Source: Terebella lapidaria
Lineage: Eukaryota; Annelida; Polychaeta; Terebellida; Terebellidae
Assembly (NCBI GenBank): GCA_949152475.1
Contig: OX424560.1
Coordinates: forward strand, 20,957,106 to 21,021,105
Length of the DNA: 64,000 nucleotides
Direction: 5' to 3'
Shown: positions 6,020 to 48,655 of the stretch, one piece after another
Position numbering within the stretch: position 1 is the first letter of the stretch
How the letters are laid out: every line of letters starts with the position of its first letter
Notes under the pieces: model-generated
The model's database searches: none
What the model was told of the DNA's origin: nothing
What the model saw: the letters and a program-made list of their open reading frames with translations, nothing else
Position numbers and translations under genes: made by a program

Positions 6020-7623
6020 GTCACTAAAATTAGGCGATAATTGAGTTATGGTCTTAAGACCATCGGTTGTACGCCATACGATTGGGAATTGGCCAAAGAA
6101 AAATACAAAAATAGGTTGAAGATTTAATATTGATTAGAACCGGAGTTATAGCCATTTATGTGATTTTCTTTTTTCCGTTGCCATGGCAACCGTTTTGTGA
6201 GCCACTACCATAGCACTCCAGCCCTATAAATTTCAAATCGATCGGACCGTTTGCCTTTGAGTTATGAGCGCAGACATTTGCATTGAAACGTCGCTGGCCA
6301 AAAATAACCGAAATCGTGACCCCCAATTTTTCGACATCGGGCGATAATGGAGAGTTTTCGTCGTACGACCATCGGTCGTACACCACACGATCGAGAATTG
6401 GCCAAAGAAAAATACAAAAATAGTTGGAAAAATTAATATCAAGTAGAACCGGAGTTACAGCCAATTAAGTGATTTTCACTTTTTCCGTTGCCATGGCAAC
6501 TGTTTTCATCCGATTTTGACAAAATTCGAACGGGACCGAGCGATTACCGTAGCACTCCAGCTCTATAAATTTCAGATTGATCAGACCGTTTGCCTTTGAG
6601 TTATGAGCGTAGACATTTGCATTGAAACGTCGCTAGCAAAAAATAACCGAAATCGTGACCCCCAATTTTTCGACATCGGGCGATAATGGAGTTTTCGTTG
6701 TACGACCATTGGTCGTACACCATACGATCGCGAATTGGCTAAAGGAAAATACAAAAATATTTGGAAAACTAATATCAAGTAGAACCGGAGTTAGAGCCAA
6801 TTAAGTGATTTTCACTTTTTCCGTTGCCATGGCGACTGTTTTCATCCGATTTTAACAAATTCGAACGGGACCGAGCGACTACCATAGCACTCCAGCATTA
6901 TAAATTTCAGATTGATCAGACCGTTTGCCTTTGAGTTATGAGCGCAGACATTTGCATTGAAACGTCGCTGGCAAAAAATAACCGAAATCGTGACCCCCAA
7001 TTTTTCGACATCGGGCGATAATGGAGAGTTTTCGTCGTACGACCATCGGTCGTATACCATACGATCGAGAATTGGCCAAAGAAAAATACAAAAATAGTTG
7101 GAAAAATTAATATCAAGTAGAACCGGAGTCACAGCCAATTAAGTGATTTTCACATTTTCCGTTGCCATGGCAACCGTTTTCATCTGACTTTGACAAAATT
7201 CGAACAGGACCGAGCGACTATCATACTGCTCCAGCCCTAGAAATTTCAGATCGATCGGACCGTTTGCCTTTGAGTTATGAGCGCAGACATTTGCACTGAA
7301 ACGTCGCTGACAAAAAATCACCGAAATCGTGACCCTCAATTTTTCGACATCGGGCGATAATAGAGAGTTTTCGTCGTACGACCATCGGCCGTACACCATA
7401 GGGTCGGGAATTGGCCAAAGAAAAATACAAAATTAGTTTAAGAAATTAATATTCATTAGAACTAGAGTTATAGTCAATTATGTGATTTTCTCTTTTTTCG
7501 TTGCCATGGCAACAATTTTTTTCTGATTTTGACAAAAATTGAGGAGGATCGAGCCACGGTGATACCGCTTCTTCCCTATAAATTTCAGGACGATCGGACC
7601 ATTCGGTTTTGAGTTATGCGCGC

Positions 7624-7682
7624 GGACAGACAAACAAACAGACAAACAAACAAACAGACAAACAGACATACAAACTGACAGA
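7624..7682 (+). repeat. Microsatellite (ACAAACAG/ACAGACAA)n
   Basis: Imperfect tetranucleotide-based run of CAAA and CAGA that begins exactly where the last 337-bp unit reaches its GCGC.GACA motif. Confidence 0.85.
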
Positions 7683-8524: not shown

Positions 8525-9002
8525 CTAAGTCATTTTGCTATTATTTTCTGGGTCCAGTTCGAAGTATTCGGAGTTGACGCCGTCGAGTTCATACTCGTCC
8601 GATGAGTAGTCTTTTCGATCGAACTTAGGCGATTCGTAGATGTGTTCGTTAGCGGACTGTGTACTTCGCTGGTAGGCGCCCGCGTCTGGCGACATCTGCG
8701 CATGACTGTGACAAGCTCCCGCGTGCGCATGCGCGTGGACGCCACCAAACGGCGCATGCGCACCAATGCTGCCACCGGAAGGCACCGCCGGCAATGGTGT
8801 CATCTGCTGAGGAGCATGTCGTTGCATCTGCCACGTCCTATAGTAGGCATTCTCGGATGAGTGGTAGAGCTCAGTGGAATCTCCGGTTTTGTGATTGAAA
8901 GGAGGTCGTGACATTGGCTTGACTTGGCCGTCGGCCGGGCCGTAAGGAACCTCTGGAATAGCTCGCTTCATGTCCGAACGGGCCGCAGGTGGATGTCGCC
9001 TT
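8525..9002 (-). CDS. Exon 8: cytoplasmic tail and stop codon
   Basis: Acceptor CTCATTTTCAG; TAG stop at 8527-8525. The 158-residue tail is polar. It has a proline-rich stretch (TPLPAVPSG), a His/Ala-rich stretch (GVHAHAHAGACHSHA) and about a dozen tyrosines, several in acidic or SH2-type contexts such as IYESP, DEYELD and SEYFELD. No kinase, death or TIR domain is visible, so signalling by recruited partners is an inference. This region is the most GC-rich of the gene and gives open frames on other frames and the opposite strand, which I treat as shadows. Confidence 0.85.
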
Positions 9003-12000
9003 CTGAAAATGAGAAGGGAAATTGTAATCATTTGATAAAAAGAGGAAAGCTGCCGCAGCCATCATATATCATAAGGGCCGGCCGCATAGAACTGTCTACT
9101 GCACAGGGCAACGACGTTGAAAATCACGGACAACAAAACACGCATAAAACCCCCTGGAGTCGCTTTTCCCTATTGTGCACAGGTGGTCCTAACGGCACGC
9201 ATTAAGGCGATAACTCACGAGTTTCCTCCTGTAAGAGACACCGCCCATCCTAGTCGTTTATCTTTTTCTTTTTTCATTAAAGTGATCACGCGTATTGCCC
9301 ATTATGTGACCGTTGGAACACCTGCTTCCAGCTGTATATCGCCTCTATATGAGATGCGTGGCTGAGATATCGAACGCTCCCCGTATCTGATAACACCGCC
9401 ATGAAAAAATAACCGATCCCTCTCCATTATTGTCCGCTGTCTTTTGTAGTGAGATAATCATGTCTCCCTCAATCTCCTCCCTTTGACAAAGGAAATCTTA
9501 GACATTGTGTTTTGATGGCGGAGTAAATGAAACGTTTTAGACTTTCACAATTAAGCGAAATAAAGGGGAAGCTTCCTTCGATATTTAATACACATAAAAC
9601 AGAAACAATGACCTAAGCAGCTGCACAGAAATAAACGTGGTTTTGCCCACTTCCATTCAGATACAATGCAAATGAACTTAGTAAAATAATATCTTTGCTC
9701 TGGTGAGGACTGCGTAATTTTCTTTCCTTTCAATATTTCAAGAACAACAGGGACAAGTTGCTTTTCCAGCTATATTTCCCACGGGATCGGCTGCCTTTTT
9801 ATGATGAAGTATGTTTTGATAGCATCATTGATCATGTCTTGGTTATTGATCGATTCTCAGTGCAATTGCAAATATTCGCTGCGCCGATATAGACGTAATC
9901 ATAAACCATGCACTATTTCATCCAATTTTTATGCACTGTCCTCTTATTTTGTACGGACAATGTACTTAAATGTCTGCGCCTTGGAGTTAGATTGGGATTA
10001 ACTTGGTACAGTTATTATTAAATCATCCTTACCGTTTGATGTATATGAGCCCAGCGGCTAGAATACATAGGCCCACGGATACAGCTATACACAGTATCAC
10101 AATCACGGACAGACCTGGAAATAAATTTTCGATTTTTAAAAACCCCCCATACTGCCAATTGATTCTTTTGTTTTTGGAGAATTGTCAATTTCAAGTAATA
10201 AAAATTGGTACGTTTGTTTCTATATACTCCATACATAAATATATGCAACATATTATGAAAATGTACCATGTCTGCCGTTGAAGAAGCCCCCGTTTGTGTC
10301 ATGTGGCCCGGACAGAACCGATAGTGCTGAAAAAAGGTATTTCGTTCACATCAAAGCACGTATCATCCCGGCAAACAATACATCACAATCATTGACAGAT
10401 GATAACACGATTATGTAGTGGTCAGAAAACTGCTCATGGGAACTCTAGGGTGCAATATATTCATTAATTCCAGTAGTAAACCAGTATGTCGCGTTCGAAT
10501 AAGTTTATTTTTTCTACAAATTCATACCAAAAGTGCACTTGTGTAAATGATAAAAATGCACATTAATTTGAGCAATTATATTATTCAAATCCCTGCAACA
10601 CTATATCGCACTGTTATCGATTTTTTATGTATATCTACTGATACCAACCCTCCGAGCAGTTGTGGTAGTCCATATAGTCCCATCTATTGCCCACACAGCT
10701 CAGTCTGAACTGTCTGTTACTGTCGCCGCCACAGTTGACAATGGCAGTATCACCCGTCCTATTGACCCAGCCATTGGCCGGCTTCAACACATTGGAACAA
10801 CCGTTAGCTGCGAAATAATAGACATTATAAATATCAATAAAACTGTGTTGTAGATCAATAGATGGTACGAATTTAAATGACAACATACAATTTGATGGGA
10901 CTTGCGTTGTATCAGCGCTAGTTTTTGAATATTACATCTAGATGTAGGATTTGCATATTTTCTCACCTTGAAACCGAAATAGAAAGTGGGAAAGTTTCCT
11001 GTTGGATCGCTCGCTGGCCGGTACGAGCCTCACTTCCAGTCTGTTGTTTGATGACGTCAGAATTCTCCGTTCACGTGACCCGGTGGCACAGACAGTGACT
11101 GTGGATCTCCCGCTATTGGGGTTAACCCCTTGTTCCTTGATCACAGCAAACACGTGACAAACATCACCCACCTCGGTCTGCTGAGAGGGAAGGCAGGGTT
11201 AAAGAAATGGAAATGTGAATGAATGGAGCAGTGTTTGATATTTCGAATTTATTACTATGTATCATGTTATCAGCACAGAAAAAAAAAGATTTCCAATACC
11301 AAGTATATTTGAAAGATTTATAGTAATTGATGGATATCACACCGAAAAATATATGACATTGAGTACATATTTGTTGATGTGCTGATGTCACACAGTTTTA
11401 TAAATATCATCAAATCCAACATTATACTTGGTAAATTCTCATGAACCCCCAAACATTAAAATTAGGTCCTCACCTCGGTGCCGAAATCCAGAAGGGTCAG
11501 GGTGATATTCTGTCCTGGGTTGACCGTGACCCACCAGGGGCTATCCAGGGACCCACACCCCGTTTCCATGGTAACAAGACTGGACAGGTATCCCTGCTGT
11601 TCGCGGACCTCCACTGCCTCGGAATTCTCACAGTATGATTTGGAAGCATTGACAACTGAAAAAAAATTGAGGATAAAATGAATAAAATATTTTCTCTGCA
11701 TGCATTCGTTAAAAATGTTGGAGGGGTTTCCCTAAAACCGCCGTTTTATACTGCAGGAACTACACCCAAATTAGCGGTGAACATCTTCGCCAAATCAAGA
11801 CAACACTGCAGTGAATTAGCTTCAAAGCTTGTAAATACAACCTTCAGAACAAAATCCATGCACATACGCCTCACTGAGAGAACCTGTTTTATTAACATCA
11901 ACCGACCTTTGACACATTCGTGGCTCACTTCCAAGTAGCTGCGAAGATCTTTAGAACACGGCTGTCGGTCGCTAGGTATGAGCGTTGCTACGGTAACGGC

Positions 12001-15000
12001 GCACGTACGACGTCCGGAGCAGACGGCGTCTAGGTAAGGACGCGCGTTCGTTTGACAGTTAGTAAATCCGTGCTGTCCGGTGATACAGGTGCCCTCCTTC
12101 ATCCGTCCATAGAGGGCGTGGGTTATCAGGATGACTTCGTTTGGTCCACATGCCGCCTTAAAGACGTCATTCTCGCAGTATTCTTCCACCGCAAACCCTG
12201 TTGAATAGCCAAAACAATTTTTTTTTTAATGTTCTGGACTAGATATCGTTTAGGGAGACATTATAATAGCAATATAAAACACTGCCACAACCAAACAAGG
12301 TGTTAAATGAATTGGGACTCAAATGATCATTTACAAACGAAAGCATATTCTGTCTATGCAATTTTTCGAAAGCCATTCACGATTTCTTATAGTATAGGTA
12401 TAGTATGGGTTGTATAGTATGGGTAGAATGGGTACATATTCCTAAATAACATGTGAAATCGAATTTTCAAACAGATTCTTATATTGTACAACGTTTTTTG
12501 TACATGAAGACTATTACAAAACATTTCACTTTATCTCGAATTGAGAAACGGAGACAGTGCATTAAAACTAAAAGAGACTTAATTCGAGAGTGTAAAACTA
12601 CGATACAGATGCATTCAAACAAAAATGGGCTCCTGTCTGGCAAACCGCCTAATCCTCTTAGGCTTTTTACCACAGAAATTTCCCGCGGGACCGAAGAGGA
12701 GATACCTAGTAAGCTGTTAGTTTGGCCGCGAGGACAAAACGTCGGTCGGACAAACGCTGGTAACATCCCCTTCCAGGGAGATCAAACCCAGTTTTCCCTT
12801 CCCACATTGCAAATCCCTCGTCTTAATTTCGCAGCATTATCCCGCCCGCTTCTCGCCGTCCTAGATTCCATTATCCCGGCCCCGCGGTCATATAAACACC
12901 GGCCACAAACACCTGCCGAGGAAAGGTCTTATGCATCTTTGATGGGCGGCCATTATTCAGTGGCAAATTGTCTCTGTTTGGTACCCATCAGTATGGTCAC
13001 GTTAGGGCAATTCTGCTAATGTAGTTGTGTCGCCGCTACGTTGCAAGTATTAATCGCGTGGGCAGGGTAGGGGTGGATGTGGAGCCACCGTGGATAATTC
13101 TAGGGTGTCCATAAACCGACAACTACAACTCTGGTGACCAAACTGGGGCATTATCTGGAAAATAAGCTTTATATAATCGCAAATAAAGCGAAACCCACCT
13201 GCATGAAATAATGTTTTGTAGCTCGGGTGTGTTTCTTAAAGTGGCTATTTGTTGGGTTATTCCCACGTGTATGTTGTTTGATGGCATATTGACTCACACC
13301 AGGGTATTAAAGAGTGACGCTCAAACTTCTAAATATGGTAACGTTATTCCACAATATCGTTATTTAAATGTTTCTGTCCGCCATTCAAGCCTGATTCAAA
13401 GCCTGTCGCTGTGGGATTTACAAACCGTCTCATCACATCTCATGATTATGCCGATATACATGCGTAGACTATCATCCATCTAATTGCTTAATAGATTGTC
13501 GAACATTTGTATACTGATTCTGTCAGGTGTACAGCATAAACAACTACACAGTGTCTACCTGTGATGACCTCAATTCTTTCATCTCAATGGATAAAGGAAA
13601 ATTAATTGAGCTCTGTTTGCTCCATGATGTTTCATGTTTAGATCTTCTATTGGCATCGTCAAAATCTGGTGGCATTGGTGGTAACAGGCTGATACATAGT
13701 CATGCATTACTTGCATCTTTCTTTACATCAGTTTACGGAGCCCCTAATAGGACATGTTGAGGAAAAAAATTAACTGTTCACTCAATTTAATAAATCCGTA
13801 TTCAGTTGGCATCAGTCTGCGAATGTAAATAAATAGTTCCGGCATCACGGCGGGCAACAGGAGACTGTGGAAATTGCAGTGGGGCATGCATGTTTTTCAG
13901 TTGTTAGAATGTTGTGTTGCGTAACCAACCACTGTAAATAGAAAAGAAGGTTTCGATCGTACGTGTAATGTTGAACGGTAATCAAACAATCGCCTAACCA
14001 ATTATTGCAATGAAACTCTTCGCACCTCAACTATTATCAATGGTATATGATGAATACATGTATGTGGGCCACGTTAGGGGCAAATGACATCGCCTTTTAT
14101 TGACAGTCGAAAATAGGAATATAGGATTATCTACGTGATAATCCGGAAGCGGCACAGGACACGTCATCTGTGATTTGCATCGTTCATTTCGATCCCATGA
14201 CGAGACCCGTTTTTTCCCCACCAAGGGCGGATTAGCGTGATGGTTAATCAGGTCTTGTGTAATCGATAATCAGTTCGCTGTTGGGTAAGCCACCCGAAGG
14301 TGTCAACACAAGTCGATAACAAAAGGGAGCTGTCACTGCCAGCGACATGCAGGCGAAATCTGAGCGCTCAAGGACGGTTCCTTGACAAAAACAGGGGGCG
14401 AAAATCTTAACTGACGGGAAACGGACCGCAATAGAGGGGCATTGTTTTCCGTTCGTCAGTCTTTTTGAAAATATTATTTGAAATCGTGTTTGTGTGTGGC
14501 TGAAAATTGATAAATCGATGGCACCAGCACGCTGGTTTTGTTTGGGCGTACGTTTTTTTCCACACAAAAAAAAATTGCGAAATGACTTTTTCTGCTTCTT
14601 TTCTACTGTATAAAGGCCGATATCATTATATTCTACCATATACTCTGAGGGTTTTGACTCAAATTCATCTTTACAATTGATGGCACACTAGATAGATTTA
14701 CGCTCCATCGTCATGACATTTACTACGTTATTTAAAGTTTGACAACAGCCACCACAACAGAGACAACTCAGTTTCAGTTTGACGATACAATAGTACCAAT
14801 AAACAATACCCAAGTATATAGTATCCGCAAAACCGAGTCCATTATCCAATCTCAGAGTCCGGTGTCAGGCAAATTATGTCTGAATTATACCAAATTATCC
14901 TAAATTATCCTCAGAAAGTATCCTGGAATGAATGATGGGTACTATTTGCGAACCTACACCAGAATACGGTAGTAAAACATCGCCGCTTCCTATATGTACA

Positions 15001-18000
15001 CATCCATCAGTCTTCAGTTGTGTGAATCCTATTATTCGATTCAGATTCAATTTTCTTCAACCATACTGTTAGATTTAACTGGACATAAAGCACCTGGGAT
15101 GAAATGACCGGGAGGGGGGCGCTCACGCACACAGGCACCAGCATGATTACACGGTGTAATGTTCAGAACATAGTAATGATTGGACACTTTCCTCCTGATA
15201 AGAGGGTCTCAGATAGTTATTTTCGGGGCACGTCCAATGAACAAAGGGTACTTTCCTTGTCAAGGTTAGTTGCGCTCAACGTGGATGCTAGATCAAGAGT
15301 GATCACATTTCGCAAGAATATCACCACAATAGCAAGGTAACTGAATACATATTGACGTTGCAGATATTGTTAGGCCCAACTGAATAATATGGGATATGCG
15401 TTAGGGCTGATTGCACGTAAAATACCAGTTATTGCAGTGAGGTACTTTCCCATTGACTTATAATGTGGAAGTAAAGGTAACAATATCACGAAGACAATAC
15501 AATCCCCTGACCCAAAACTTGGCGAACACTCACACATATACTCATGGATGATGAACCGAGACATGGTTTCATAAATAATATCGCGGAAGCTGTGCAATTT
15601 GATGATTAGATAAATCATTTTATACGTTTCACCAAAAGAACATTCGTGTGTTCTGCTTGACAAACGCTGTTGGCTGCGTATGCGTATACTTTGTTGTGGT
15701 CAAAATAACGAGAATATCTAGGGCTATACTTTCTGTGAGATGAATACAATGAGCGGAACATTCTTAATCCCAAGCACCTCGGTGCACCCGAGTGCATATC
15801 ACCCGTGAGTTTTACTAGTATCACTAGCTATTTGCTGTACAAGATAATCCTCTCACTCGCCATGTTGTGAGTGTAGTTTACTGAGAAATAGGTCGGAAAA
15901 TGACATATGAAAACGATGATTTTAACAGATTTAACATCGTTTAGTAAGAAACGGAGTCTCGGTTGGTAATCCTTGATGACTAACAACCAGAAAAGCAAAG
16001 TTTCACGTTGATTGGAAGTATGAAAATGTATGAATTTGTTACCTTTATATTTACATTATAAGTGAATGGACAGCTGGTTAGTTACAGGTCCATGAAAATT
16101 ACATGCGATCAATCCTTAAAGCAAGTGAATAACGTGCAATGATTACGGATTATGAGGACAGACGTTGGAACATATGAAAATATTTGAGACACATGACTGT
16201 TTCAGAAGCAACAAAAAAATCAAGTGTCGCCAATACATTGTGATACTTTACCTCTGCCAATGTATATCATTTTCGTAGTGATTGAGTTGGGCATTGTAGA
16301 AAAGCAGCAAACTTATCTACTGTTGGGACATTCCCCTGTAACACCCAAGACACCATTTGACGACAATTAAGTATTTGATGTCTAAGGTTGTCTGTCCTAA
16401 CTAATGGACTGTACCGTCGTTATTTCCCTATAATGGTGTTCTTCACCCACATCGTCACAAAAACAACAGACACGTTTTCCGATGTCGCTAAGGTGGTCGA
16501 CCACAGTTTCAACTCAACTGAAAGTAAATTGATTTAGACAGAATTCAGGGGAGGAACAGACACCAGATACCTGTAGCCACTGGTCACCGCCCATTGGACA
16601 TTCAATGGGAGTTTCCAGTTTCGCCCCCTTGTGTGAAAGTCCATTCCATTGCTCGCTCCCACCATGCATTACGCTGTTACGTATATCACAAGAACCTTCA
16701 TCTCGAGTGGCAGTGAGTCACATTAACGTTATTGAATACGGCCGTTTCGTGGCCAATATTTGGATATATAGGGTATCGTTCTTCAGGCTGCCTGTGGGAA
16801 GCGCCGTTTATCACAATTGCCGACGCAATTCCCAATTTGGCCCTCGGTCATCTCCACAAGACACATTTACTTGTAGATAAACCTAGACGCCGACCAAGGG
16901 CGAAGCCTCTATCAGTCAGAAGCATTACCCACAAAACGGTTCTGTTATATGCAAAACAGCCTCGCCGGCGCATGAATAATATCAGGCTATTTTGCGTCCA
17001 ATTTTGTCAGGATGCATTGGCACTGTGGCAGACACGAGACGACGCATTTTAATACCACGGAGATGATATGGGAGAAAGCAACATTGTTCACCTATGGTTC
17101 CAACTCGAACGACGCCATCATATAGAAATCCATCTATCCATCGGCCTGACTTCCGGGTCAACACACTGAACGAAATTACGTCTTTCCGCTGCACACTTCC
17201 TGTATTACCTACATCTAACAACGACGTCCATCTTTCTGGCGTTCGACATACTCTCTTCTTTTACGCCTATAGACATTTTCTCCTCTGCAAATGTTTTTTC
17301 TCAGTTGCATCCATATCGTCACAATTACCAAGGAGGATGGGGAATAAATTGTCTTTCCTATCGAATAACACGCCCCGTACATGTATCTTCTAACCTCACC
17401 ACAGGCCAAATACTAAACAGCTTGTCAGACACCTTTGTCTCACTTGATGAAGCTGGAGTCTAAACTTTGACATCAATTAGGACAGTCATTATCATTTTTA
17501 TGTAAGAACGTTTTGCTGGGTGACAATTCCAATCGCGGTTGACTTATATATGCACTTGAGGCAACTATTTGGTGAAGATATGTGCATTGTCTGCGAGGCA
17601 TAAATTTTAACTTATTTTTATTATTGGCTTCTGTTGAAAGTTCAATATTCCAAACGTGAGAGCGGGCATCCCAAGTCATTTTGCAATTGATAGCAATTAC
17701 AAATCATATAGTGGTACATTATAACCTGAAGTAATAACCTCAAAGTGGTTGATATTTGTAGCGTTGTGACGACGTGGTGGTTACACTGGTAGTGTCACCA
17801 CAGTTATAGCGCACATATGCTGGGGGCATTTATAAGACATTCACTGACACTCCAGGATTTATATAAATGTAGTTGCACGTGAAACTATTCACTCATTATT
17901 CACTGTCTGACAGCTAGAAATATATACGACACTGTTTGTGTGATCAATGATTGTTAAGTTATCAGGAAATAATTTCTCCCAATGATCAAATTTGGACACA

Positions 18001-39000: not shown

Positions 39001-42000
39001 TGGTTCTTCAAGCCGCCTCTGGGAAGCGCCGTTTATCACATTTGCCGATGCAATTCCCAATTTGGCTCTCGGTCATCCCCACAAGTCACATTTACTTGTA
39101 GATAAACCTCAAAGTCGACCGAGGGTTAAGTGGCTATCAGTCATAGACATAACGTGCAAAATGGTTCTGTTATATGCGAAACAGTCTCGGCGGCGAATGA
39201 ATAATATCAGGCTATTTTGCGTCTAATTTTGTCAGGGTGCAACGACATTCTTTAATATCAGGGAGATGACATGGGTGAAAGCAACGTTGTGCGCCTGAGG
39301 TGTGTCCCGGCCGATCGCCAATGTATATGAATCCATCTATCCATCAGCTACCACCCGGCTATTTCAGGCTATTTGGCGTCTAATTTTGTCAGGGTGTCTT
39401 TAATATCAGGAAGATGACATGGGTGAAAGCAACGTTGTGCGCCAGAGGTTGTGCGCCTGAGGTGTGTCCCGGCCGATCGCCAATATATAGGAATCCATCT
39501 ATCCATCAGCTACCACCCGGGTCACACACTGAAAGAAATTACGTCTTTCCACTGCCCACTTCCTGTATAACATACAGCTAACTACGCCATCGATCTCTCA
39601 AGCGGTTCAACGTACTCTTTCCTTCTGCTCCCACATGCTTCTTTTTCTCGTTCCATTCCATTTGCTCCGAACTCCTAGAGAGATTATTGTCGGGTTTTTG
39701 TCACATCCACATTGTCACAATTACCAATGAAAACCATGGTTAAAATTAACCTCCCGATTGCTTAACACGCCACATGTTGTTTTCCTCTGGTAAACATGGT
39801 AAACAGCTTGGACACCTTCATCTGATAAAACTGGCGTCTAAATTGTGGCAACTGTTATTCCCATTTTTGACATTAGAGCGTTGGGGGCAAAGCCCCCAAC
39901 TCTCTACATGTCTATGTGCTGACTTTTTTATGGAGGTTTCATGCCAACCTATCGACGCCCGTTTTCGCATGTAAACCTTTGTACACCTACTTCAAATGAG
40001 TATTTTCTTCGTCCTTGACATAAAATCTCTCGATTTGGTGGCAAGCTTTGAATATTCCACAGATATATAATGCATAAATCGATGTGTTAGGTTTGAGAAA
40101 ATTACGCAAAATGGTCAGCTCGTCTGGAAAATGTCAAAATGGCGGAGCCGATGGAAATTCACGTTCCCAGAATGCAAAGCAAATTTTACCGCAATGACGC
40201 GTACTTTGGAACGTACAGTTTTCTGTGCAGCATTTTGTGCATGCATGTACATGTAACCTTGCGTACGGCCTTTTTTGGCGTAATGAAGTAAACACAACGA
40301 TTCGTCTACGGTACCACGACTACATTTACCGTAATTGGACATATTTTATCACATGACAAGGTGTTCCATGCTGGGTTACGAAACCTTTTTATTTTAAACT
40401 GGTCTTTTAATTTGCTCAGTATGCATATGTTATCTATATCATGATATCAGATGCAGATATTCCTCATATTTTATTGAGGTTCAATATCATTTTATCAAGC
40501 GTATCTGTTTCATTGAGTTCAAAATAAATGTTTACTCATTAGGAATATGATTGAAGTAGGCCTATGTGTTTCATCATAATATACGGGAATGAATTGGAAT
40601 CATGTGGGACATGATATGTTTCAATTTTCTTTTTTCGTAAGGGGGGGGGGGGTGTAAGATATATTCAGGTCTCGTGGTGCTGATGGTGTGCTCGAGCTCT
40701 AATGTCGTCTCCCGCAGTTAGCTGCATTTTCTTGTTCAGTAGGCATTTACTACGGAAACTTTTCAATAGGTGTCAATTCCAACTGCAATTGATTTATTTG
40801 TGCACTTTAGACCACTACTTGGTGATGTAATGTGGAATGTTTGGTAGGCATAAATTTTAACTTATTGGCTTATGTTGATAGTTTGATATTTCACATGTGA
40901 TAGCAGACATCCCAATCGTGTTGTATGTGAGAGCAATTATGAATCATATAGTGGTGTATAACACAACCATTGTATTCAATACTGGTACCAAATGAGCTCA
41001 CAAGAGGTTGATAATGCTTCAATAATGAATATATTAGTCAGCCAAGTCAATAAGTATGGATATTGTTGAGTATTTTAAACCTTCACAGTGTCTGAATAGC
41101 TACCACATCACACGTATGTTACCCTAGCACCAAATTATCCCCACAGAATATCTTCGAATGACTCATGGGAACTACATGTATTCGAGCATTTACACCGGAG
41201 TAGGATAGTACATCGCCTCTTCATAAACCCGTCAGCATTCAATATGTGGGAATCCTATTACTCAATTCAGATGCAATTCTCTTTGAACAGCGGAAGAGCC
41301 ACATTTAGCTGAACATAAAGCACCCGGAATAAAATGCATTTTGTGTGAGAAAAAACTCATCCACACGCAAGCAGCAGCATGATTACACGGTGTAATGTTC
41401 AGAACATTGTAATAATCCCCCTGACACGAGGGTCTCAGGTAGTTATTTTCAGCGGGGCACGTTCAATGAATAAAGGGAACTTTCCTTGGACAAGGTCAGT
41501 TATGCTTCTTGTTAATGATGGATCTCCAGTGATCACATCTCTGAAGAATACTATCTCAACTATAACTGTAACTGAATACCTATTGATTTTTGCAGGTATG
41601 GAGATTCGAGTCAAAGCAAGTAAACTCGCTTACTGCATGCGATGATTCTAGATTACGAGGACATAAGTTAGGGCATGTCTGTTTCAGAAACAACAGAAAG
41701 AATCTTTCACATATACATTGTGACACGTTAACTTTACCATTGTGATCACTTTCATGGCGAATAAGCTTTGGCGTGTCGCGAAGAACAGTAACCTAATGTA
41801 CCACTGGGACATTCTGCCGTAACATCGAAGACACCAATTGACGACAATCAAGTAAGTGATGTCTAGGGTGGTCTGTCCTAACTAATGGACGGCACTATCG
41901 CTATTCCTCCATAGGTTCTTCACCCACTTCGTCACAAAAACAACATACACGTTTTTGAATGTCGTTTCAGTGCTAGACCACAGTTTCAACTCAACTGAAA

Positions 42001-45000
42001 GTAAATGGGTTTCGGGAGAATTTAGGGAAGGAACAGAAACCAGATAGCCAGCGGTCACCTCCTGTTGGACATTCGATGGAAGTTTCTAGTTTGGTCCCCC
42101 ACTGTGTGAAAACCCATTCCATTGCTCGCTCCCACCACGCATCGTGTCACAAGCAAACCTTCATCCTGAGATGCACGGAGTCACAATAACGTTATTGAAT
42201 ACGGCTGTTTAGTGGGCAATATTTGGATATACCGTGGCTCGTGTTTCAAGCCGCCCGCGGGAAGCGCCGTTTATCACATTTGCCGACGCAATTTCCAGTT
42301 GGGCCCTCGGTCATCCCCACAAGTCACATTTACTTGTAGATAAACCTCGACGTCGCCTGATTGTGTAGTGGCTGTCAGTCAGAGGCATTACCCGCAAAAC
42401 GGTTCAGTAAAACAACCTTGCCCGCCCTATGAATAATATCAGGCTATTTTGCATCCAATTTTGTCAGGATGCAATGGCACTGCAGCAGACAAGAGACATC
42501 GACATTCTTCAAGATCGTGGAGATGACATGGGTGAAAGCAACATTGTGCCGTAGGGCGCCCCTTCAACCCACTGCCAACATATAGAAATCCATCTATCCA
42601 TCGGCCTGACATCCGGGTCACGCAGTGAACGAAATTACGTCTTTCCGCTGCCCACTTCCTGTATAACCCACAGTTAACTACGCCGTCCATCTCTCAGGCG
42701 GTTCAATGTACCCTTTCTGTCTGTTCATGTACGCTTCGTCTCTTCTTTCCATTCCATTCTCTCCAAACTCCGAGAGAGATTAATGCCGTCATTATCGGCT
42801 TAGTCACATCCACATCATATTTATCAAGAAAACACCGTGGACCTATATATTTCCTTCCCTCCCGCAATCTGTATACTGAACGGCTTTAACACCGTGTTCT
42901 TAGCCGATGAACCTGGCGTCTAAATTGTGACATCAATTAAAGTACTAGTAAAGTGAAAATATAATGTTTTGTTATATGAAAGATCTCATTGATCTGAGCA
43001 AAATGGTTTTTACGGTATATGAATATCTCTATCCGTTCAAAAGTTACAGCCATTTGAAACTGCCATTCCGGCACTACATTACAGAAGCCACTTGAAAAGT
43101 TCTAGCAACTCATTAATATGCAAATTAGATGCTAATGAGAATTCATGACGTCACGAGGGGAACAAATTTTAATTAGGATATTTCAAGCCATGATATAATG
43201 ATTCTTATTGAAGGTTCTGACGATCTGACTAGTGCATATTATTATGTGCCATACATAGTCAATATCCACACAAACTGTACTGTTGCTATGGTTACCAGTC
43301 GTTCCCTATAGCCGTAGTTACCCATGGTTGCCATAGCCAATAACTGCCAAGTCAGTCTATCCACAGACTTTCTGTCGATTATTTATGAAATAAATTATTA
43401 TAGATCTCAAGTTGGCACCATTTTTTGTGTGCATATCCTGTTCTGAGTGAGTTTCTGGCCCCAGCAACCATGGTTGCTATGGGCCATACCAGGTCACTGT
43501 TTACCTTGACAACAACAGAAAAAGTGAAAACACTGATTATTCATATTAGAATCTGTATAAAATAAGTTTTGATGAATAATCATAACAATAAATGAATGAA
43601 AAATACATATCAAAGTACCTAATTAAAACAACTTCCCCCGATGATGTCATGAATATCTCATTTGCATACTAATTAGCTCAATTGTTTTGAAAAAGCAAAT
43701 TCGCCGATTTCAGTCTTCAAAGTGCTATAACTTTTGAACGGACTGTGATATTTACATGCCGTAAAAAACATTTTGCTCAGATCAATGAGATCTTTCATGT
43801 AAATTCACATCATATTTTCACTATACTAGTACTTTAAGAGCGATGCCTGTCATTCCCATTTTGCAGTGAACAATTTTATGTGGGAGCGTTTCGATAGGTG
43901 TCAATTCCAACGGTTGTTGATTAATACGTTCACTTTAGACAACTGCTTAAGGACGTAATGTGCATTGTCTGGCAGGCATAAATCTTGACTTATTGGCTAC
44001 TGTTGAAAGTTCGATATCTCAAATGTGACAGCAGATATTACTAGTAATTTTGTTATAGCAGTTATAGAAATCACAAATGACATAGTGGCACAAAACACGA
44101 CCATTGAGTTCAACACTAGCATCAAATAGGAGTTCAATGGGCTGATACTGCTTAAAAATGAATTAGTCGGTATACACGTAGATAAATACGGATCTCTGAA
44201 TATTTTATACCTTTACAGTGTATGAATAGTTGACACAACACTCAGACCTTGTTTTTCCTCTACAGAACCACACATACATATACTGTATATGTGTGAATAT
44301 TTAATGATAGTCCGTTATAGACACTAGACAGAAAATGACAATGTATGGTATCGTGGCGAAAAGTGTATGCTATATATACACCTCAAAGCACCGGCAACAC
44401 GTTAGTCGTTGTGAGTGTTCGCTATAAATGATATATATCCATTAATTCTGAATCTAGGCTTGCACAATAACTGATGGTGGAAAAAAGTTGTATTTTGTCA
44501 TGGCACACTCATATTAAAACATTTTAAAGCAACAAGTTTAGAACGTAAATCTCGTTGAACCGAGCTTGTATAGTTTCCCATGAAAGAGCGATGTATCCGT
44601 GAAAATACTCTGGGACCTTACACGAATGTGTCCCCTTGAGTAATGCACATAGAAGTGATGGATCAGCATCCACTGAACAAAAGCCGTGTATCAATACCCG
44701 ATTGCTCGGATGTAATTCAGCTCTTTACGCCTGTGCGACATCCCATTACTGATTAAGTGCTGTCCCACCACGAAGTGGAAAGAATTGGGCATACCAACCA
44801 CCACAAAACCATGAAGAGAAGAACGTTGGCCCCTGTCTGGGAGGGTATACACGAAATTCGTCACAAAAGTCATTTCGCAAACAAATCTACCGGGATTTGG
44901 AATTCGATGGGAAAACTGAGAGGTCACTCTTCCTATTTGACTGGGTGGGTTTGATCCCCCATACATTAGGCGGGTTTAGGGAATTTACATGAAATCGAAC

Positions 45001-48000
45001 AGATAACAGGGTGTTTCCTCATCGTTATGTTATTGTAAGGGGGCACCGTGTGAATGGATATGTTCAAAGGGGAATTCGCCGAGATACATGTAGAATGGAC
45101 GTCCATGGTATACTGCATATTGTAAACAAAGGAAACTGTTTCTTATCAACCGATTTTCACAGAGATTTTCTCTTTCAATTCGTTCTGAATTTGACAATGT
45201 GATTTTGGAGTTCATAAGAAAGTATCGTGCTTGCATAAATACCTACCCAGTTAAAATTCTAACATTCTTGTATGAATGGTTTATGAAGGAACATGACATC
45301 TACGGAGATGATTGTGATGCCGAGATTTGGCGGACGCAAAATTAGAGAACCCAATCGAAAGGAGTATCATTTTTTATTCTGACATCAATATGAAATATAG
45401 TCGGTCTATCACGGGTCAACCTCAAATATAAACATCACTAATCGACCCATATTGTTTAATGTCTTTGCCCCTGGGTGGATACACAATAATGTCATTACTG
45501 GTGTACCCCTGGGCTCCCTGTATTCGAAACACTCTAGCCGTGTCAATGAATGAAGCAGGGATGGGATAGCGGATCCTATATGGGGTTGGAGAGATATACC
45601 GGGGAAATATCGTGGACTAAAGCAGGTGGCGTTACACCCGGGGCCCGTGATTGCCAGTGCCGCAAGCCGAAATAACGCGATAAAATCCCCGTGCGCTGTG
45701 AAACGAAGATAATACCAGGAAATTAACGGACGGAGCCACCCGTGAACGGAATGATGCCCCAAGGACGTACGGATTTTTTCTTTCCCTTCTATCTCATTTC
45801 TACATTTCTGGCAGAGAATCTCTGCCCGCCATCCGGCTATAACGTCTGTAGGGCAACAAATACAGGCAGATATCTTCTCTTACGTTCGTTTTGTCTGGCC
45901 GTGGAGGCGCCCTCTGAAATTTCATATCTAAAAAAGTGAATTTTGAAATATCTGGGCTTTGATATCGGGTATGTTGTTGAGCTCTGTTTGGACAACTCCA
46001 AAATTCCACACTTTTTGCCAGATTGTATTGTTACTGTTGCTATTCGTAACTGCGATGAGTGTATATTTTCCATTTACATGCAAATGCGCAAGATTGCATA
46101 TTCGCCAATCGCCCATATTTCTTTCTCCTTTGAGATGAACGATATGCACTGGGACACCCAATCATGCACCAAATCATTGTGTCGCTTTTATCCCTCAACC
46201 AGTCACAGGGGGAGGGAAAGATTGAGTGGATAAAAATGATCGATGGCATGTCGTGATTTCGTACGATCTTTCGCCTAGTTAATTAACCGAGCACCGCACA
46301 ACACGGATTCTCGAGCGTGGAGTGCAGACTAGTGTCAATACCTCGCAAAGCTCAGGTAATTTCCGCTGCGACGGCCAAACTTTAGAAAATCGTGAAAAAC
46401 GCGGACATGTTTCACAAAGACGCATAAGGACCCGCCATGTTTATCCGACTGTTTGCTTTGCGCGTTCCGTTGTCGATAACCTGATGGCCAATTTTTCAAG
46501 AATTTTGCACGAGCGTTAAGTATTCCCGTTTGCTTGGTATCCACCGTGAAGTTACCAGGTAATATTTGCATTGCACTAGACAATCATTTTTCACCTGTAA
46601 TTACTTCATGTTCGTTACGAGTCACTGTGCATATATTCATTGCAATTTAAATGTCACTCTGGATATTCCGGATATGTTGTATCTCGTTGTTCTACTGCCG
46701 TAGACTAATGACGCTCGTAGAATTCTGACATCGACGTAAATTTAAGTGGCTCGCTCATTAATTCGAAGTCATGTACAGTGCCAATTAACCACGGAAGGGA
46801 AAATGGAACCCAGTCATTAACACACGGATGAGAGCACAGGTACACACATTATGTTTTCGCTGGGAAAAACGTAGTGAAACTGGTTTATATTGCAAAAAAC
46901 TATTGGCACCCAGACAGGTGAGAGAAATATAGCTTTATAGCTTCATAGTATACAAAATTGTGTACTTCTCCATTTTCATATACATCGGAAATAATGGCAT
47001 ATCATAGGTAAAAACTGTCGTTGAAGACACTACACCAAGAAGCTATTTCAGAGAAGACCCGCCGATCTTCGATACCGCCTTATCAATTAAGGTCTGTCCC
47101 AGCGTCTTCTCGGACTTTGCCCCTGACGGCGACCGGCTCTCCTTATCACACCACACCACTGTGTGTCTTCATTAGCTGCTGTCGACTCAGGTAGAAATCC
47201 CCCTTTGCCTTGCATCGTCAGCAAGTTGGCAAACGAGGAGATCCCATACAGTTCTCTCTAATACGACGGGACGACTTGCGCTTCTCGCCAGGACGAAGCG
47301 TTGACTTCTGTTGTTTTCAAAGAGAGGAGTCCCCTGTCGTACCAAGGAATTACGTTAAATATGATTGATGGCGGAAGAGCAGAGCATATGATCTGAAGAT
47401 ATTAAGGTGCTCTTGAGAAGATGCCGTTATCAGACGGCTTGCAGGACTTGGACGTTTGACTTGTGGTCCCCTGGTCGCTGTCAGTAATAATTCACAGGGA
47501 CTGGGACCGTCCGTTCGTCAGTCATTAGTGAACGAAAAGCAGCAATGAGATCCGAGTCTAGAGATAGCATATAGTGGAATTTAGCGCAATATTGCGAGGT
47601 TTGAGTTGCAACCGTCATCTAGTAGATCTGAATGGAAAAAGTCGAAGTGGTGGAAAAAGTACCGCATAGTGCAAGAGAATTGAAAAATAAACTCAACTGA
47701 ATATTTTCCCAGAGTTATGTCAACAAAGGCATTCGGACTGACGCCAGTACCCCGACAAAGGAGAAATAACGAGTTTCGATATTTGAAATGGAATGCCTCC
47801 TTCCCCGTAATTATTAAAAGTTTGATATTTTCTGGCGGCGATATTTGCACAAACTGATGAACGGTGTAATCATTGCTGGCGTGTCAGCTACGTTGATTGA
47901 TCTTTTTTGCCACATTGATTAACCAGAGGGGAGCTTTCAATCTCCAGTGAAGAACTCTTTGGTAAATGTGTCAATACCCAAGTCCGGCTAATTTCCGCCT

Positions 48001-48655
48001 TGACGCCAGTCCGCCACGAAAACACGGCTTAAGCTCTAGGTGTGCGACACGAACCGAATCCTGTCAGATATATTGTTATCTATTTACTATGCGTGTTTTC
48101 ACGTTGATAAATCACAAGCTCTACGTTAAAAGCGAGAGATCTGGGTGTCAGATCAAAACACACCAGTCTTTCTAGACGGGGTATTATGGCGGTGACAGTT
48201 CATTCGTCAGGACATCAACCGCGAAAAACTGTCAGAAAGCATCGCCATGGTCAGGTTTTTTTGCTTCTTTTGTATTTGCGAGAAAGGAGCGATGGCGAGT
48301 CGTTGCTGGTTAAATCCACTTTCATCCCGGACGGTCACGTTGTAGACACGTCGTGATTAATGCACGGGCAGACAGGGATATCATGCACTGTGAACGTCCC
48401 AGAGAGGAAGTGTGCTCGGAAAGACGGACTCCCCAGAAACACCGACCAACAAAGTAAAATTTACATTCAGGACGTGACGATGAATTGTACCCGCTGCTAC
48501 AATATGGAAATATGAAATGAAAAGAGAACTGCATAAACAAAGTAAAACATGAGTAGAACTTTTACTCGTCTTACATACGCACCTGAACTTTGGGCATCGG
48601 CAAAAGTCAGTGATATCCAAAGAAAGGTGAACCAAGATGTTCTTTTCACATCCAT
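8525..48655 (-). CDS. SUEL lectin-CUB-sushi single-pass membrane protein, 8 exons, 512 aa
   Basis: Spliced gene assembled by reading splice sites. Minus-strand exons: 48655-48583, 12197-11907, 11655-11474, 11180-10967, 10807-10649, 10326-10267, 10114-10033, 9002-8525. They total 1539 nt, 513 codons including TAG, with matching phases at all seven junctions (1,1,0,1,1,1,2). Layout: signal peptide 1-24; SUEL/Gal_Lectin domain about 26-121 with eight Cys and the YGR and YLEV signatures; CUB-like domain about 128-253; sushi/CCP-like domain about 257-303 with four Cys; stalk; transmembrane helix about 328-351 followed by a K-R-R-R stop-transfer; cytoplasmic tail 355-512. Four N-glycosylation sequons lie in the ectodomain. 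By family, SUEL domains bind galactose or rhamnose glycans and CUB/CCP modules mediate extracellular protein contacts, so a cell-surface glycan-binding or adhesion receptor is inferred. No named orthologue recognised. Exon structure is seen directly; the long join of exon 1 is the least certain step. Confidence 0.85.
9003..10032 (-). other. Intron 7, no gene seen
   Basis: 1.03-kb intron between the transmembrane and tail exons, with consensus ends (CG|GTAAGG ... TTTTCAG). I see no repeat family or conserved frame in it. Confidence 0.7.
10033..10114 (-). CDS. Exon 7: transmembrane helix
   Basis: Acceptor TTTATTTCCAG. The exon encodes about 24 uninterrupted hydrophobic residues (SVIVILCIAVSVGLCILAAG onward) ending YIK, then a consensus donor CG|GTAAGG in phase 2. 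Joined to exon 8 it yields K-R-R-R, a positive stop-transfer, placing the N-terminal lectin side outside the cell. Confidence 0.87.
10267..10326 (-). CDS. Exon 6: short juxtamembrane stalk exon
   Basis: A 60-nt, phase 1-1, stop-free segment after a good acceptor (CCTTTTTTCAG). It encodes about 20 residues rich in Gly, Asn and Ser, a plausible stalk before the membrane. The donor ATG|GTACAT is weak. Because the exon is symmetric, leaving it out would still join exon 5 to exon 7 in frame, so it may be alternative or, less likely, not an exon at all. Confidence 0.6.
10649..10807 (-). CDS. Exon 5: sushi/CCP-like domain
   Basis: Phase 1 at both ends, as is usual for sushi modules. Residues 254-306 contain four cysteines spaced as in CCP domains, the PANGWVN segment (compare P.NG in the family), the second Cys within AIVNC, the third and the conserved Trp in CVGNRW, and a final NC. 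At about 50 residues it is slightly short for a CCP domain. Donor chosen: GAGG|GTTGGT. An alternative GT four bases later would give phase 2 and break the frame to exon 6. Confidence 0.78.
10967..11180 (-). CDS. Exon 4: C-terminal half of CUB-like domain
   Basis: Residues 183-253 carry the second cysteine pair (about 190 and 213), the alternating hydrophobic strands VCHVFAVI and STVTVC, and the terminal HFLFRF strand seen at the end of CUB domains. The acceptor is a tandem CAGCAG, so splicing at 11180 or 11177 is possible; the second choice drops one Gln and keeps the frame. The donor AAG|GTGAGA is strong and phase 1. Confidence 0.82.
11474..11655 (-). CDS. Exon 3: N-terminal half of CUB-like domain
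   Basis: The acceptor has a long T-tract (TTTTTTTTCAG). Residues 122-182 include Cys130 and Cys155, the PWWVTVNPGQNITLTLLDFG segment typical of the CUB core (aromatic, then a hydrophobic strand, then DFG), and sequons NAS and NIT. It ends in phase 0 at a near-perfect donor, GAG|GTGAGG. CUB domains are often split by an intron at this region. Confidence 0.82.
11907..12197 (-). CDS. Exon 2: SUEL-type (D-galactoside/rhamnose-binding) lectin domain
   Basis: The acceptor is TTCAACAG|GG. Residues 25-121 of the protein form one complete SUEL domain. It has eight cysteines (about 32, 41, 62, 72, 84, 90, 105, 119), the ALYGR motif where family members have ANYGR, and the terminal PC..DL.SYLEVSHEC block that corresponds to the family's PC.GT.KYLEV.Y.C. 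The donor AAAG|GTCGGT leaves phase 1, the usual phase bordering this module. The domain is the same type as in EVA-1 and latrophilins, but nothing else in the protein resembles those. Confidence 0.88.
12650..12985. other. GC-rich single-copy segment in intron 1, candidate regulatory block
   Basis: Within AT-rich intron, about 330 bases have raised GC and CpG content (for example CCGCGAGGACAAAACGTCGG and CCCGGCCCCGCGGTCATATA). It is not part of the tandem array. A 188-codon plus-strand open frame (12453-13019) crosses it but has no recognisable domain and no splice or start support, so I do not call it a gene. A regulatory element is possible but unproven. Confidence 0.25.
13600..17770 (+). 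repeat. Array copy 1
   Basis: Complete copy; contains all landmark blocks. A plus-strand frame at 16732-17052 with FITIADAIPNLALGH and VDKPRRRPR is shared in part with other copies. Confidence 0.7.
17990..20626 (+). repeat. Array copy 2, interrupted at its right end by the Ngaro-like element
   Basis: Complete up to the block that precedes TTGGTGACGTAAT. That block continues after the retroelement at about 25146-25220. Confidence 0.7.
21163..22149 (-). CDS. Tyrosine recombinase ORF of the Ngaro-type element
   Basis: 328-codon third ORF, a phage-integrase-like recombinase: an N-terminal SAM-like DNA-binding part (STYRTHRDIYLKFC...) and a catalytic domain with the conserved Arg in LFRISN, the HSLRRGG box, the VGDWRS segment and a downstream Tyr. 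In this element order the enzyme integrates a circular DNA intermediate, which explains the lack of an RT-linked DDE integrase. Confidence 0.9.
   Translation of the reverse strand: MDTTADIVAHLDKEVAYWKSIAFAESTKSTYRTHRDIYLKFCAIVKCDPLPVSTVNLCRFAAYLGRTRAYNTVQQYLNVLRILHLEMGYVNPLKDNYALKSVLAGIKRGKGGAQAYKIPLNPSDLLKFRSRLRLNQLRDSQLWAVLLCCFFGLFRISNVTVKSQSGSPDFKSLRRCDLSVTSTGSRITVTGTKTIQHGDRQFVVPLPFLRDHPLCPTSAMVSFLVLAGNLPPTAPLFSTIHGRQTVHLTADTVRRRIHDLANTTGLPANKYGTHSLRRGGATWMLLAGVPLPVIKSVGDWRSDCVMRYLSPDIDSNATIITTAAKTFL
22116..23768 (-). CDS. Reverse transcriptase-RNase H ORF of the Ngaro-type element
   Basis: 550-codon second ORF. It has an RT domain with the VDLQAAYRS, LPFGARKSPPIFN and LLDDF blocks, then an RNase H domain with LYSDASQNGGG and MDNTAAVAFVNR. 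This RT/RH type groups with DIRS-order elements rather than with LINEs. Its end overlaps the start of the recombinase ORF by about 34 bases in another frame, as overlapping ORFs are common in the family. Confidence 0.88.
   Translation of the reverse strand: MPISALLHNIHAWEHELANDCDADFILNGIKTGFSLINPDIIVTDIEPVDLDNHRSTSAPHMRSQVEHKLHAEITDNNYLIAKSKPIITSAIGCIPKKDGDIRIIHDCSMPLNGSVNSYASKDPCTYQTVSDALSLIRPGWFMAKVDLQAAYRSVGIKPSEYPLTGLKWQFSNSDSFTYLVDCKLPFGARKSPPIFNRITQSIRRMMSRRGYHACVVLLDDFFVAAESYDECVRAYSDLITLLRTLGFRINWRKVVDPTQDLVFLGIRINTASGRVNLDPDKVNELLHLLDSVLTRKRFSKTQLQSLAGKLSWATTVIPWGRTFLCNIFRAIGSLKHKSHKLVLHEALRKDLKWWRTALGSGSNTRRIWDMRPSQWLYSDASQNGGGAFCDGFWLYRNWLKDTGFSGCHINVKELAMAYLAIDHWAPVLAGKRVTVIMDNTAAVAFVNRQRAPNRHAVFILRQLSLISVRWDITIDAVHIPGSTNEIADSISRLDEPYQIQRFVSLLHRFHHPSPPPALFWLPYCMSLNSLRYLSPQLGQWIQQLTSWHI
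23802..24956 (-). CDS. Gag-like ORF of the Ngaro-type element
   Basis: 384-codon first ORF of the element. The N-terminal and middle parts are polar and Ser/Thr/Pro-rich, as in DIRS-order gag proteins. The C-terminal part has a CCCH-like zinc motif (C.KFNYSSGCDLKACKFSH) followed by another Cys pair, consistent with nucleic-acid binding. It is followed after about 30 bases by the RT ORF. Confidence 0.8.
   Translation of the reverse strand: MATDFSLTDWAANFELTEETVAALAKKGFNSFKTISRITQDILTKDFSKCVNTAQFLMLSDAVQSLKPAPLLSTATVSTQPADQQTQSKAPSMSTNNSQAGEEPRPGTSTTASSVGVNALQEKLNAAGSLSAADILNLVSVAGPDSTRSTPVTSSPPSGMNTMPTLFDPFAPSEDKAPKYSKFRDIRDFISFVRKGDPSDDPTGTLKLGSVEVALNLKESKIPLEKVQITHYMEASLKILRAMIRDDGANMSTVFDYVNYLIKIATFAQSFRWESLLRYDHEYRKGQAETGFPWGSDSPYLMQLHLQSSLGYREPTAKSKMAAKNQSKPSQNKYDPSTGKPICRKFNYSSGCDLKACKFSHVCQTCYGKHTDCAAPATATKPSA
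25690..27360 (+). repeat. Array copy 3, partial
   Basis: Starts mid-unit at GTTAATGAATACGGCTG, is broken by about 0.5 kb of unrelated sequence (25.9-26.4 kb), then runs from the TTATCACATTTGCCGACG block to the end of a unit. The 25220-25690 stretch before it shows no match to the unit or to any gene. Confidence 0.6.
27380..30900 (+). repeat. Array copy 4
   Basis: Full-length copy of about 3.5 kb with all landmarks and no visible insertion; the best reference copy for the unit. Confidence 0.7.
30900..34250 (+). repeat. Array copy 5
   Basis: Full-length copy of about 3.3 kb; begins with the segment also seen at 44.2-44.9 kb and 27.4-27.9 kb. Confidence 0.7.
34430..37860 (+). repeat. Array copy 6, carrying the foldback-like insertion
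   Basis: Lacks the first part of the unit (spacing from copy 5 is only about 2.1 kb) and is interrupted at 35.8-37.2 kb by the inverted array of ~20-bp repeats. Confidence 0.7.
35879..37186. mobile_element. Foldback-like element: inverted arrays of ~20-bp repeats
   Basis: The left arm (about 35879-36360) is roughly two dozen direct copies of a 20-21 bp unit of the form TTTTAAACGCAACGAAAATG. The right arm (about 36490-37186) is about three dozen copies of its reverse complement. The outermost 30 bases of the arms are near-perfect inverted repeats starting GACGAAAATC. A ~130-bp unique spacer separates them. Units alternate between CAACGAAAAT and CGTTGAAAAT forms. Long inverted repeats made of short tandem repeats are the hallmark of foldback/TU-type elements. 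The element interrupts array copy 6 and no coding region is visible, so it would be non-autonomous. Confidence 0.75.
37870..41110 (+). repeat. Array copy 7, with internal duplication and a ~0.9-kb insertion
   Basis: A short internal duplication repeats the block with GTCCCGGCCGATCGCCAAT at about 39300 and 39465. The unit is interrupted at about 39.88-40.76 kb. Confidence 0.7.
39876..40757. mobile_element. Insertion of unknown type in array copy 7, with GC hairpin at left end
   Basis: This ~0.88-kb stretch is absent from the other array copies, which run directly from the TTCCCATTTTG block to the GTTTCAATAGGTGTCAATTC block. Its left edge has a perfect hairpin (39880-39900, 9-bp arms GTTGGGGGC/GCCCCCAAC, AAA loop). 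Read on the minus strand, CTAA follows the hairpin within a few bases, weakly recalling a Helitron 3' end, but spacing is short and no 5' TC end was confirmed. It holds a poly-G run near 40641 and no coding frame. Confidence 0.45.
41120..44250 (+). repeat. Array copy 8, carrying the TTAA-flanked MITE
   Basis: Complete landmarks; the 893-bp MITE at 42941-43833 sits in the CATCAATTA site that is empty in the other copies. Confidence 0.7.
42941..43833. mobile_element. 893-bp MITE with long TIRs and TTAA target duplication
   Basis: Inverted termini begin AGTACTAGTA and stay alignable for about 140 bp, including AAAGATCTCATTGATCTGAG and CCGTTCAAAAGTTA. TTAA flanks both ends (42937-42940 and 43834-43837). 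Other copies of the array show the uninterrupted CATCAATTAGGAG-type site. TTAA duplication is characteristic of piggyBac-superfamily insertion; the terminal bases are not the usual CCC, so the superfamily is tentative. No transposase frame. Confidence 0.8.
44260..44960 (+). repeat. Array copy 9, partial
   Basis: Only the first segment of the unit is present (compare 27.5-27.9 and 30.95-31.5 kb, sharing CCACGAAGTGGAAAGAAT). Single-copy intron follows. Confidence 0.55.
44970..48582. other. Single-copy part of intron 1, no gene recognised
   Basis: No array units, no transposon with visible ends and no frame with a recognisable domain. A 117-codon minus-strand frame (45409-45762) and others near 46 kb lack domain, splice or start support. 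A CpG-richer patch lies around 47050-47350. Regulatory content cannot be judged without comparison to another species. Confidence 0.45.
48583..48655 (-). CDS. Exon 1: start codon and signal peptide
   Basis: The ATG at 48655-48653 has a strong context (A at -3, G at +4), and an in-frame TAA lies only two codons upstream, so this is the first possible Met in the frame. The 24 codons read MDVKRTSWF, then a hydrophobic core TFLWISLTF, then ADAQSS, a textbook signal peptide with a likely cleavage after ADA. The exon ends in phase 1 at a good donor, CAG|GTGCGT. Joined to the phase-1 acceptor at 12197 it gives an uninterrupted frame into the lectin domain. An intervening exon, or a different downstream partner, cannot be excluded without transcript data. 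Confidence 0.72.

Follow-up and report, generated by a model that had tools for sequence, protein, structure and literature searches.

The SUEL, or rhamnose-binding lectin (RBL), motif is defined by eight half-cystines and a YGR sequence and occurs in proteins of several architectures. EVA-1 carries two or three SUEL domains before one transmembrane helix and has no CUB domain. Latrophilins (ADGRL) are seven-helix adhesion GPCRs with a GAIN domain, and their SUEL domains are known to bind proteins. Both EVA-1 and the latrophilins are encoded by single or few conserved genes. SUEL domains are also found in secreted egg and mucus lectins. Cubilin and procollagen C-endopeptidase enhancer are CUB proteins. 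For one annelid, enrichment of SUEL-type proteins has been published: a genome study of Alvinella pompejana names PANTHER PTHR46780:SF9, 'protein EVA-1', among the enriched families, listed with 42 (PMC12403961). Seven expressed SUEL lectin transcripts and one detected protein are reported from Olavius (PMC5117596), and a rotifer survey describes SUEL lectins as having an elusive role in lophotrochozoans generally (PMC8878817).

The locus described here lies in a window of 64,000 nucleotides, the whole stretch of DNA that was analysed (C6:20957106-21021105); the genome searched comprised 761.6 Mb in 438 contigs. Like EVA-1/EVA1C (PTHR46780:SF9), the predicted protein places SUEL on a single-pass type I receptor and has many copies in an annelid genome, but it contains one SUEL domain (a single Pfam stretch) followed by a CUB domain, a four-cysteine module and a tail of its own. 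Latrophilins provide the nearest solved SUEL/RBL structures; unlike them, the model here has one hydrophobic segment, and Pfam searched at E up to 10 gave no domain beyond SUEL and CUB. With CUB receptors (cubilin, neuropilin/tolloid-like) the protein shares a domain that is CUB-like by family profile, here a single divergent CUB beside a lectin domain. The secreted rhamnose-binding lectins have the same SUEL domain with eight cysteines and YGR, whereas this protein is predicted to be membrane-bound, with a single SUEL, extra modules and a signalling-type tail. A literature search by title and abstract opening found, among the papers listed, no published SUEL-CUB(-4Cys) receptor family with such a tail, which is weak evidence.

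Gene model and nearest paralog

The sequence-only reading had joined eight exons with matching phases into a 512-aa type I membrane protein, and rebuilding the model from the window reproduced this result. The predicted CDS of 1539 nt encodes 512 aa without internal stops and ends in a TAG stop at 8525; 7/7 introns are GT-AG, and exons 2-8 are entered in phases 1,1,0,1,1,1,2. The TAA reported before the ATG is indeed in frame, beginning 6 nt upstream of it, and introns 2-7 are short, as had been claimed (152 to 1030 bp). The donors after exons 5 and 6 are weak (scores of 4.2 and 3.3 with a rough donor matrix), and in-frame skipping of the 60-nt exon 6 is possible. The features are as follows.

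48583..48655, minus strand: exon 1 (predicted; best-scoring candidate), ATG and signal peptide MDVKRTSWFTFLWISLTFADAQSS, ending in phase 1
12198..48582, minus strand: intron 1, 36,385 bp, 57% of it sequence recurring within the window
21163..24959, minus strand: DIRS-like retroelement in intron 1, on the same strand as the gene, with a tyrosine-recombinase ORF, a reverse-transcriptase ORF and a third ORF
11907..12197, minus strand: exon 2, the SUEL lectin exon (gene model, Pfam)
11474..11655, minus strand: exon 3, first half of the CUB-like domain (gene model, family CUB alignment)
10967..11180, minus strand: exon 4, second half of the CUB-like domain; a single CUB exon in the C6:21.05 Mb paralog
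10649..10807, minus strand: exon 5, module of four cysteines spaced in a CCP-like way, unrecognised as sushi
10267..10326, minus strand: exon 6, short linker of 60 nt with a weak donor
10033..10114, minus strand: exon 7, putative transmembrane segment, taken from a hydrophobic stretch of the translation, with basic stop-transfer residues
8525..9002, minus strand: exon 8, predicted cytoplasmic tail of ~159 aa with YYRTW, EHIYESPK and YFELDPE; TAG stop

The closest paralog lies upstream on the minus strand, at C6:21056429-21048232, with 42 kb between its 3' end and the exon 1 predicted at 48.6 kb. With hand-chosen splice sites and a predicted exon 1, its seven exons yield 508 aa with entry phases 1,1,1,1,1,2; the signal exon, the best of five candidates (three of them with a common donor), is 5.6 kb upstream of the SUEL exon. 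The two genes agree in module order, phases and tail, except that a single exon encodes the CUB of the paralog. Exon 6 gains support from its counterpart there, a 45-nt linker exon flanked by phase-1 introns, again with splice sites chosen by hand. The two proteins can be aligned over their full length, and SUEL and the tail contain long stretches of identity (YYRTWQxQRH, EHIYESPKFDR, YFELxPE). Because this paralog, whose SUEL is 49% identical and the closest by identity among 36 family domains, repeats the layout and phases except for its one-exon CUB, the exon layout goes beyond chance. Downstream of the ectodomain, a hydrophobic 19-mer was present at 10/10 paralog loci in a scan without a chance control; by judgement, nine of the ten have a credible transmembrane exon, and one locus (L046) offers several competing candidates. 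We regard the locus as a believable gene for a lectin-type cell-surface receptor, as predicted from its sequence.

The predicted distant signal exon

The 36-kb first intron claimed previously stood in part. The model gives 36,385 bp and sets a phase-1 signal exon apart, as is likewise predicted in paralogs, but the exon 1-2 junction itself is a prediction. Strict thresholds returned three signal-exon candidates, and exon 1 was missed since its hydrophobic core (1.91) fell below 2.0. At looser thresholds it ranked first of 26 candidates on the gene strand, overlapping variants counted. Its combined score was 17.8 (donor 10.3, signal 7.5), and nothing on any strand or locus scored higher in the 0.68 Mb scanned, overlaps included. 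Signal-exon candidates were found in four of ten paralog genes, upstream sequence being short for some, and all four are followed by a phase-1 intron.

Two further approaches to exon 1 were tried and set aside. Likeness of its signal peptide to that of the C6:21.05 Mb paralog was not significant (252/2000 shuffles scored just as well), and two overlapping candidates at 34.4 kb aligned slightly better than exon 1 to the predicted signal peptide of that gene. The idea that exon 1 is a piece of a repeat was dropped as well: its 701-bp surroundings matched the genome once, at the exon itself, in a search that skips very common words.

We believe that the exon at 48655-48583 is likely the correct first exon, as predicted. 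It is somewhat unlikely that the receptor is right and exon 1 wrong, the lectin exon joining some other signal exon, nearer or farther, so that the 36-kb intron would not exist. On the gene strand 25 further candidates passed the loose thresholds, and the opposite strand had 19; such an exon could also lie in the ~21 kb that separate the window from locus L044, beyond the sequence scanned. The predicted paralog signal exons, that of the C6:21.05 Mb gene included, are separated from SUEL by phase-1 introns of only 0.13-5.6 kb, and 5/150 first-order random sequences of the 51.8-kb region held a candidate scoring at least as high as exon 1. Set against these points are the lead of exon 1 over the runner-up upstream candidate (17.8 versus 11.8), its top rank over all strands and loci scanned, and its start context, in which a stop closely precedes the ATG and positions -3 and +4 are A and G. 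We also considered whether the long intron may reflect a wrong join of two genes; repeats account for its length, and the same prediction gives some paralogs a signal exon of their own before a phase-1 intron.

Sequence recurring within the window makes up 57% of intron 1, 53% of the flank at 48.7-64 kb, 26% of 1-8.5 kb and 0% of exons 2-8. As repeats are about as abundant in intron 1 as in the adjoining 5' flank, the length of the intron is in itself no mystery and would be an ordinary result of insertions; since their share does not exceed that of the flank, the repeats explain the length and do not prove one intron. The element at 21163-24959 matches Pfam tyrosine recombinase (PF00589, 2.6e-6) and reverse transcriptase (PF00078, 9.7e-14), and from this gene pair we call it DIRS-like; its third ORF had no Pfam match. 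Insertion of repeats and of the DIRS-like element into intron 1 best explains how far the predicted exon 1 lies from the remaining exons. Intron 1 also contains satellite arrays of 41/82-bp units, which occupy 35882-37185 in two blocks whose units look mutually reverse-complement by eye. Elsewhere in the window, a 339-bp tandem repeat of 4.2 copies, in which short open frames recur, lies at 6199-7628. A weak reverse-transcriptase fragment was seen at 60118-60405 (plus strand; PF00078, 2.2e-5, below cut-off).

Ectodomain modules and cytoplasmic tail

The lectin assignment of the earlier reading was confirmed by a Pfam SUEL_Lectin match at residues 40-119 (E 6.6e-10, 39.7 bits against a cut-off of 31.4), and the domain contains the eight half-cystines and the YGR motif. 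Across 36 family SUEL domains the eight cysteines were kept at 97-100%, as were G and R of the YGR motif at 100% and Y at 92%. The nearest solved structures were latrophilin SUEL domains (8suf, 1.2e-4; 8djg, 3e-4). The CUB-like module stayed below the Pfam cut-off in this protein but was recovered as CUB by the family profile. Residues 138-241 matched Pfam CUB at E 0.057 and 14.2 bits in the whole protein, and at E 0.0051 and 17.6 bits when the region was searched alone (cut-off 21.4). CUB regions of the family matched Pfam CUB in 11/11 cases at E up to 1, the lowest being 1e-5, and the profile built from these 11 regions matched cubilin at 3.1e-6 over the whole chain, with no single stretch significant alone, and procollagen C-endopeptidase enhancer (PCPE-1) at 2.6e-4.

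The name 'sushi' given earlier to the module in exon 5 did not hold, as Pfam Sushi matched 0/8 family members at E up to 1. The hallmark of Sushi/CCP domains is four cysteines with a Trp between the third and the fourth. In the alignment of eight members the four cysteines have CCP-like spacing and the Trp and an Arg are invariant; six of the eight rows show the four cysteines with Trp between the third and fourth, and two rows end before the fourth. The family profile of the module found no CCP in the PDB at E up to 5. AlphaFold modelled exon 5 alone with four strands (pLDDT 80); sushi identity by way of this model and Foldseek was rejected, with a best E of 1.0 and no CCP in the best 50 of 186 matches. 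Among the best 150 of 378 candidate Sushi places in the genome, which were those scored, none fell in the four SUEL-CUB clusters described below. As Pfam, PDB and Foldseek failed to recognise the module, we call it CCP-like by spacing only. Sushi repeats do fill a single open frame of 2664 aa elsewhere in the genome, at C3:27595-27604 kb.

A degenerate DNA pattern for EHIYESPK gave four exact matches in the whole genome, and the pattern read backwards gave none. The four loci (this gene, C6:21.05 Mb, C6:30.74 Mb and C3:32.08 Mb) each have a family SUEL upstream on their own strand; at C6:30.74 and C3:32.08 Mb only ectodomain and tail were matched, the exons between them being unassembled. One mismatch admitted four further places, of which C3:29655804 (QHIYECPK) sits 3.7 kb downstream of a same-strand SUEL. 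When the four tails were aligned, EHIYESPK was invariant despite overall identities of 26-37% to the tail of this gene. A plain protein search with the tail recovered three gene loci at E below 1e-4, its own included, and C3:32.08 Mb only at 2.4; it was the EHIYESPK motif pattern that recovered this locus securely.

Other tails were read by eye. The C3:26.05 Mb tail contains YAHVWELQ and HSYESPRF and the C6:21.17 Mb tail YFELEPE; EHIYESPK was not seen in the latter or in the clustered genes read. Two clustered SUEL-CUB genes at C6:34.60-34.86 Mb (L049/L050) have a different tail with an INYATV stretch, in a cluster whose 21 CUB places are 84-99% identical to the query. As tails differ between subfamilies, the EHIYESPK tail marks a dispersed subset. 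ITIM-bearing receptors have a [SILV]xYxx[ILV] pattern in the tail that becomes phosphorylated; SEYFEL fits the pattern in this protein, and strict spacing at the last tyrosine was seen by eye in 2/6 tails. The tail, absent from the sequence-only reading, holds by these alignments the most distinctive conserved motif of the gene.

The SUEL-CUB family and its possible function

The genome contains at least 150 SUEL matches, scored among 231 candidates, and the whole protein as query gave at least 103 matches, its own exons included. A query of CUB plus the four-cysteine module gave 178 matches, the best 150 of which were used. After merging, at least 163 SUEL places were counted (105 on C6, 28 on C3) and at least 113 CUB places of the family type, 110 of them on C6, the chromosome of this gene, although CUB queries taken from C6 genes may favour C6. 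Four C6 clusters hold 99 of the CUB places (44 at 13.35-13.80, 22 at 14.47-14.68, 12 at 18.07-18.14 and 21 at 34.60-34.86 Mb). A family CUB lay within 5 kb downstream on the same strand at 89/163 SUEL places, against 5 in the strand-flip control, and 19 places had a same-strand CUB in the 5 kb upstream, as expected in tandem arrays. Since the search scores only the best candidates, these counts are lower bounds. Places do not equal genes, because some SUEL proteins carry several domains (for example, a 1162-aa open frame at C6:7.15 Mb), and some copies may be pseudogenes, given stop codons in their matched stretch. In a tree of the 36 SUEL domains, 6/33 inner branches were starred, and the gene was placed in no subfamily. 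By these matches, the gene is a member of an annelid SUEL-CUB family of about a hundred or more related genes; the sequence-only reading mentioned neither the family nor the annelid origin.

The same assembly includes a mitochondrial contig (C438, 15,973 bp, invertebrate code) with all larger genes on one strand in the order nad4L, nad4, nad1, nad3, nad2, cox1, cox2, cox3, nad6, cob, atp6, nad5, as named from translations. This is the annelid ground order and identifies the genome as that of an annelid. A second mitochondrial-type COX1 was observed on contig C417 (61,412 bp; loci L040/L041) as two matches with a gap; it needs TGA to be read as Trp, and its protein looks ciliate-like, so that a ciliate associated with the worm, on its surface or inside it, may have contributed its mitochondrial genome to the assembly.

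On balance, we think that the locus probably is an intact type I receptor gene of the SUEL-CUB family, with recognition through SUEL, tail phosphorylation and the signal exon predicted at 48.6 kb. The protein would consist of a signal peptide, SUEL lectin, CUB-like domain, four-cysteine module, one transmembrane helix and a tyrosine-motif tail. SUEL, helped by CUB, would most likely bind glycans or glycoproteins carried by microbes or by other cells; ligand binding would then lead to phosphorylation of tail tyrosines (EHIYESPK; YFELDP) and recruitment of SH2 proteins. The analysis itself establishes the exon layout, the SUEL domain, the CUB domain through its family, the size of the family and the conservation of the tail. 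A role as recognition receptors would suit genes that are clustered and diverged and that combine a lectin domain with a conserved tyrosine tail, and we infer that the family would signal by tyrosine phosphorylation. As latrophilin SUEL domains bind proteins, sugar binding is not assured here.

That last point bears on whether the gene is instead an adhesion or guidance receptor of EVA-1/latrophilin type, its SUEL binding partner proteins in cell contacts and not microbial sugars. We consider this unlikely: about a hundred clustered, diverged copies count against it, since EVA-1 and latrophilins have few genes, although the best solved SUEL relatives are latrophilins and SUEL proteins appear under the PANTHER name 'EVA-1' among the enriched Alvinella families (PMC12403961). 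Less probable still, in our judgement, is a role in self/non-self or gamete recognition, with diversity kept by mating or fusion and not by microbes. A large clustered family would suit such a role, as would the statement in the rotifer survey that sea urchin eggs are protected by SUEL lectins (PMC8878817), but the conserved tyrosine tail fits this reading without singling it out.

A single gene of this kind is of modest interest alone. A species-specific system for recognising microbes or self would be expected to look like this, with membrane lectins in large tandem families and with conserved tyrosine tails, and a family with a shared tail provides a concrete, testable signalling motif in annelids. 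Tentatively, and as a possibility short of a probable one, this annelid lineage may possess a recognition system concentrated on one chromosome: more than 100 SUEL-CUB-4Cys membrane receptors with a new small extracellular domain, a dispersed subset of them sharing a signalling tail built around the invariant EHIYESPK. Such a system would form an independent, lectin-based counterpart of the immune-receptor families that are large and clustered.
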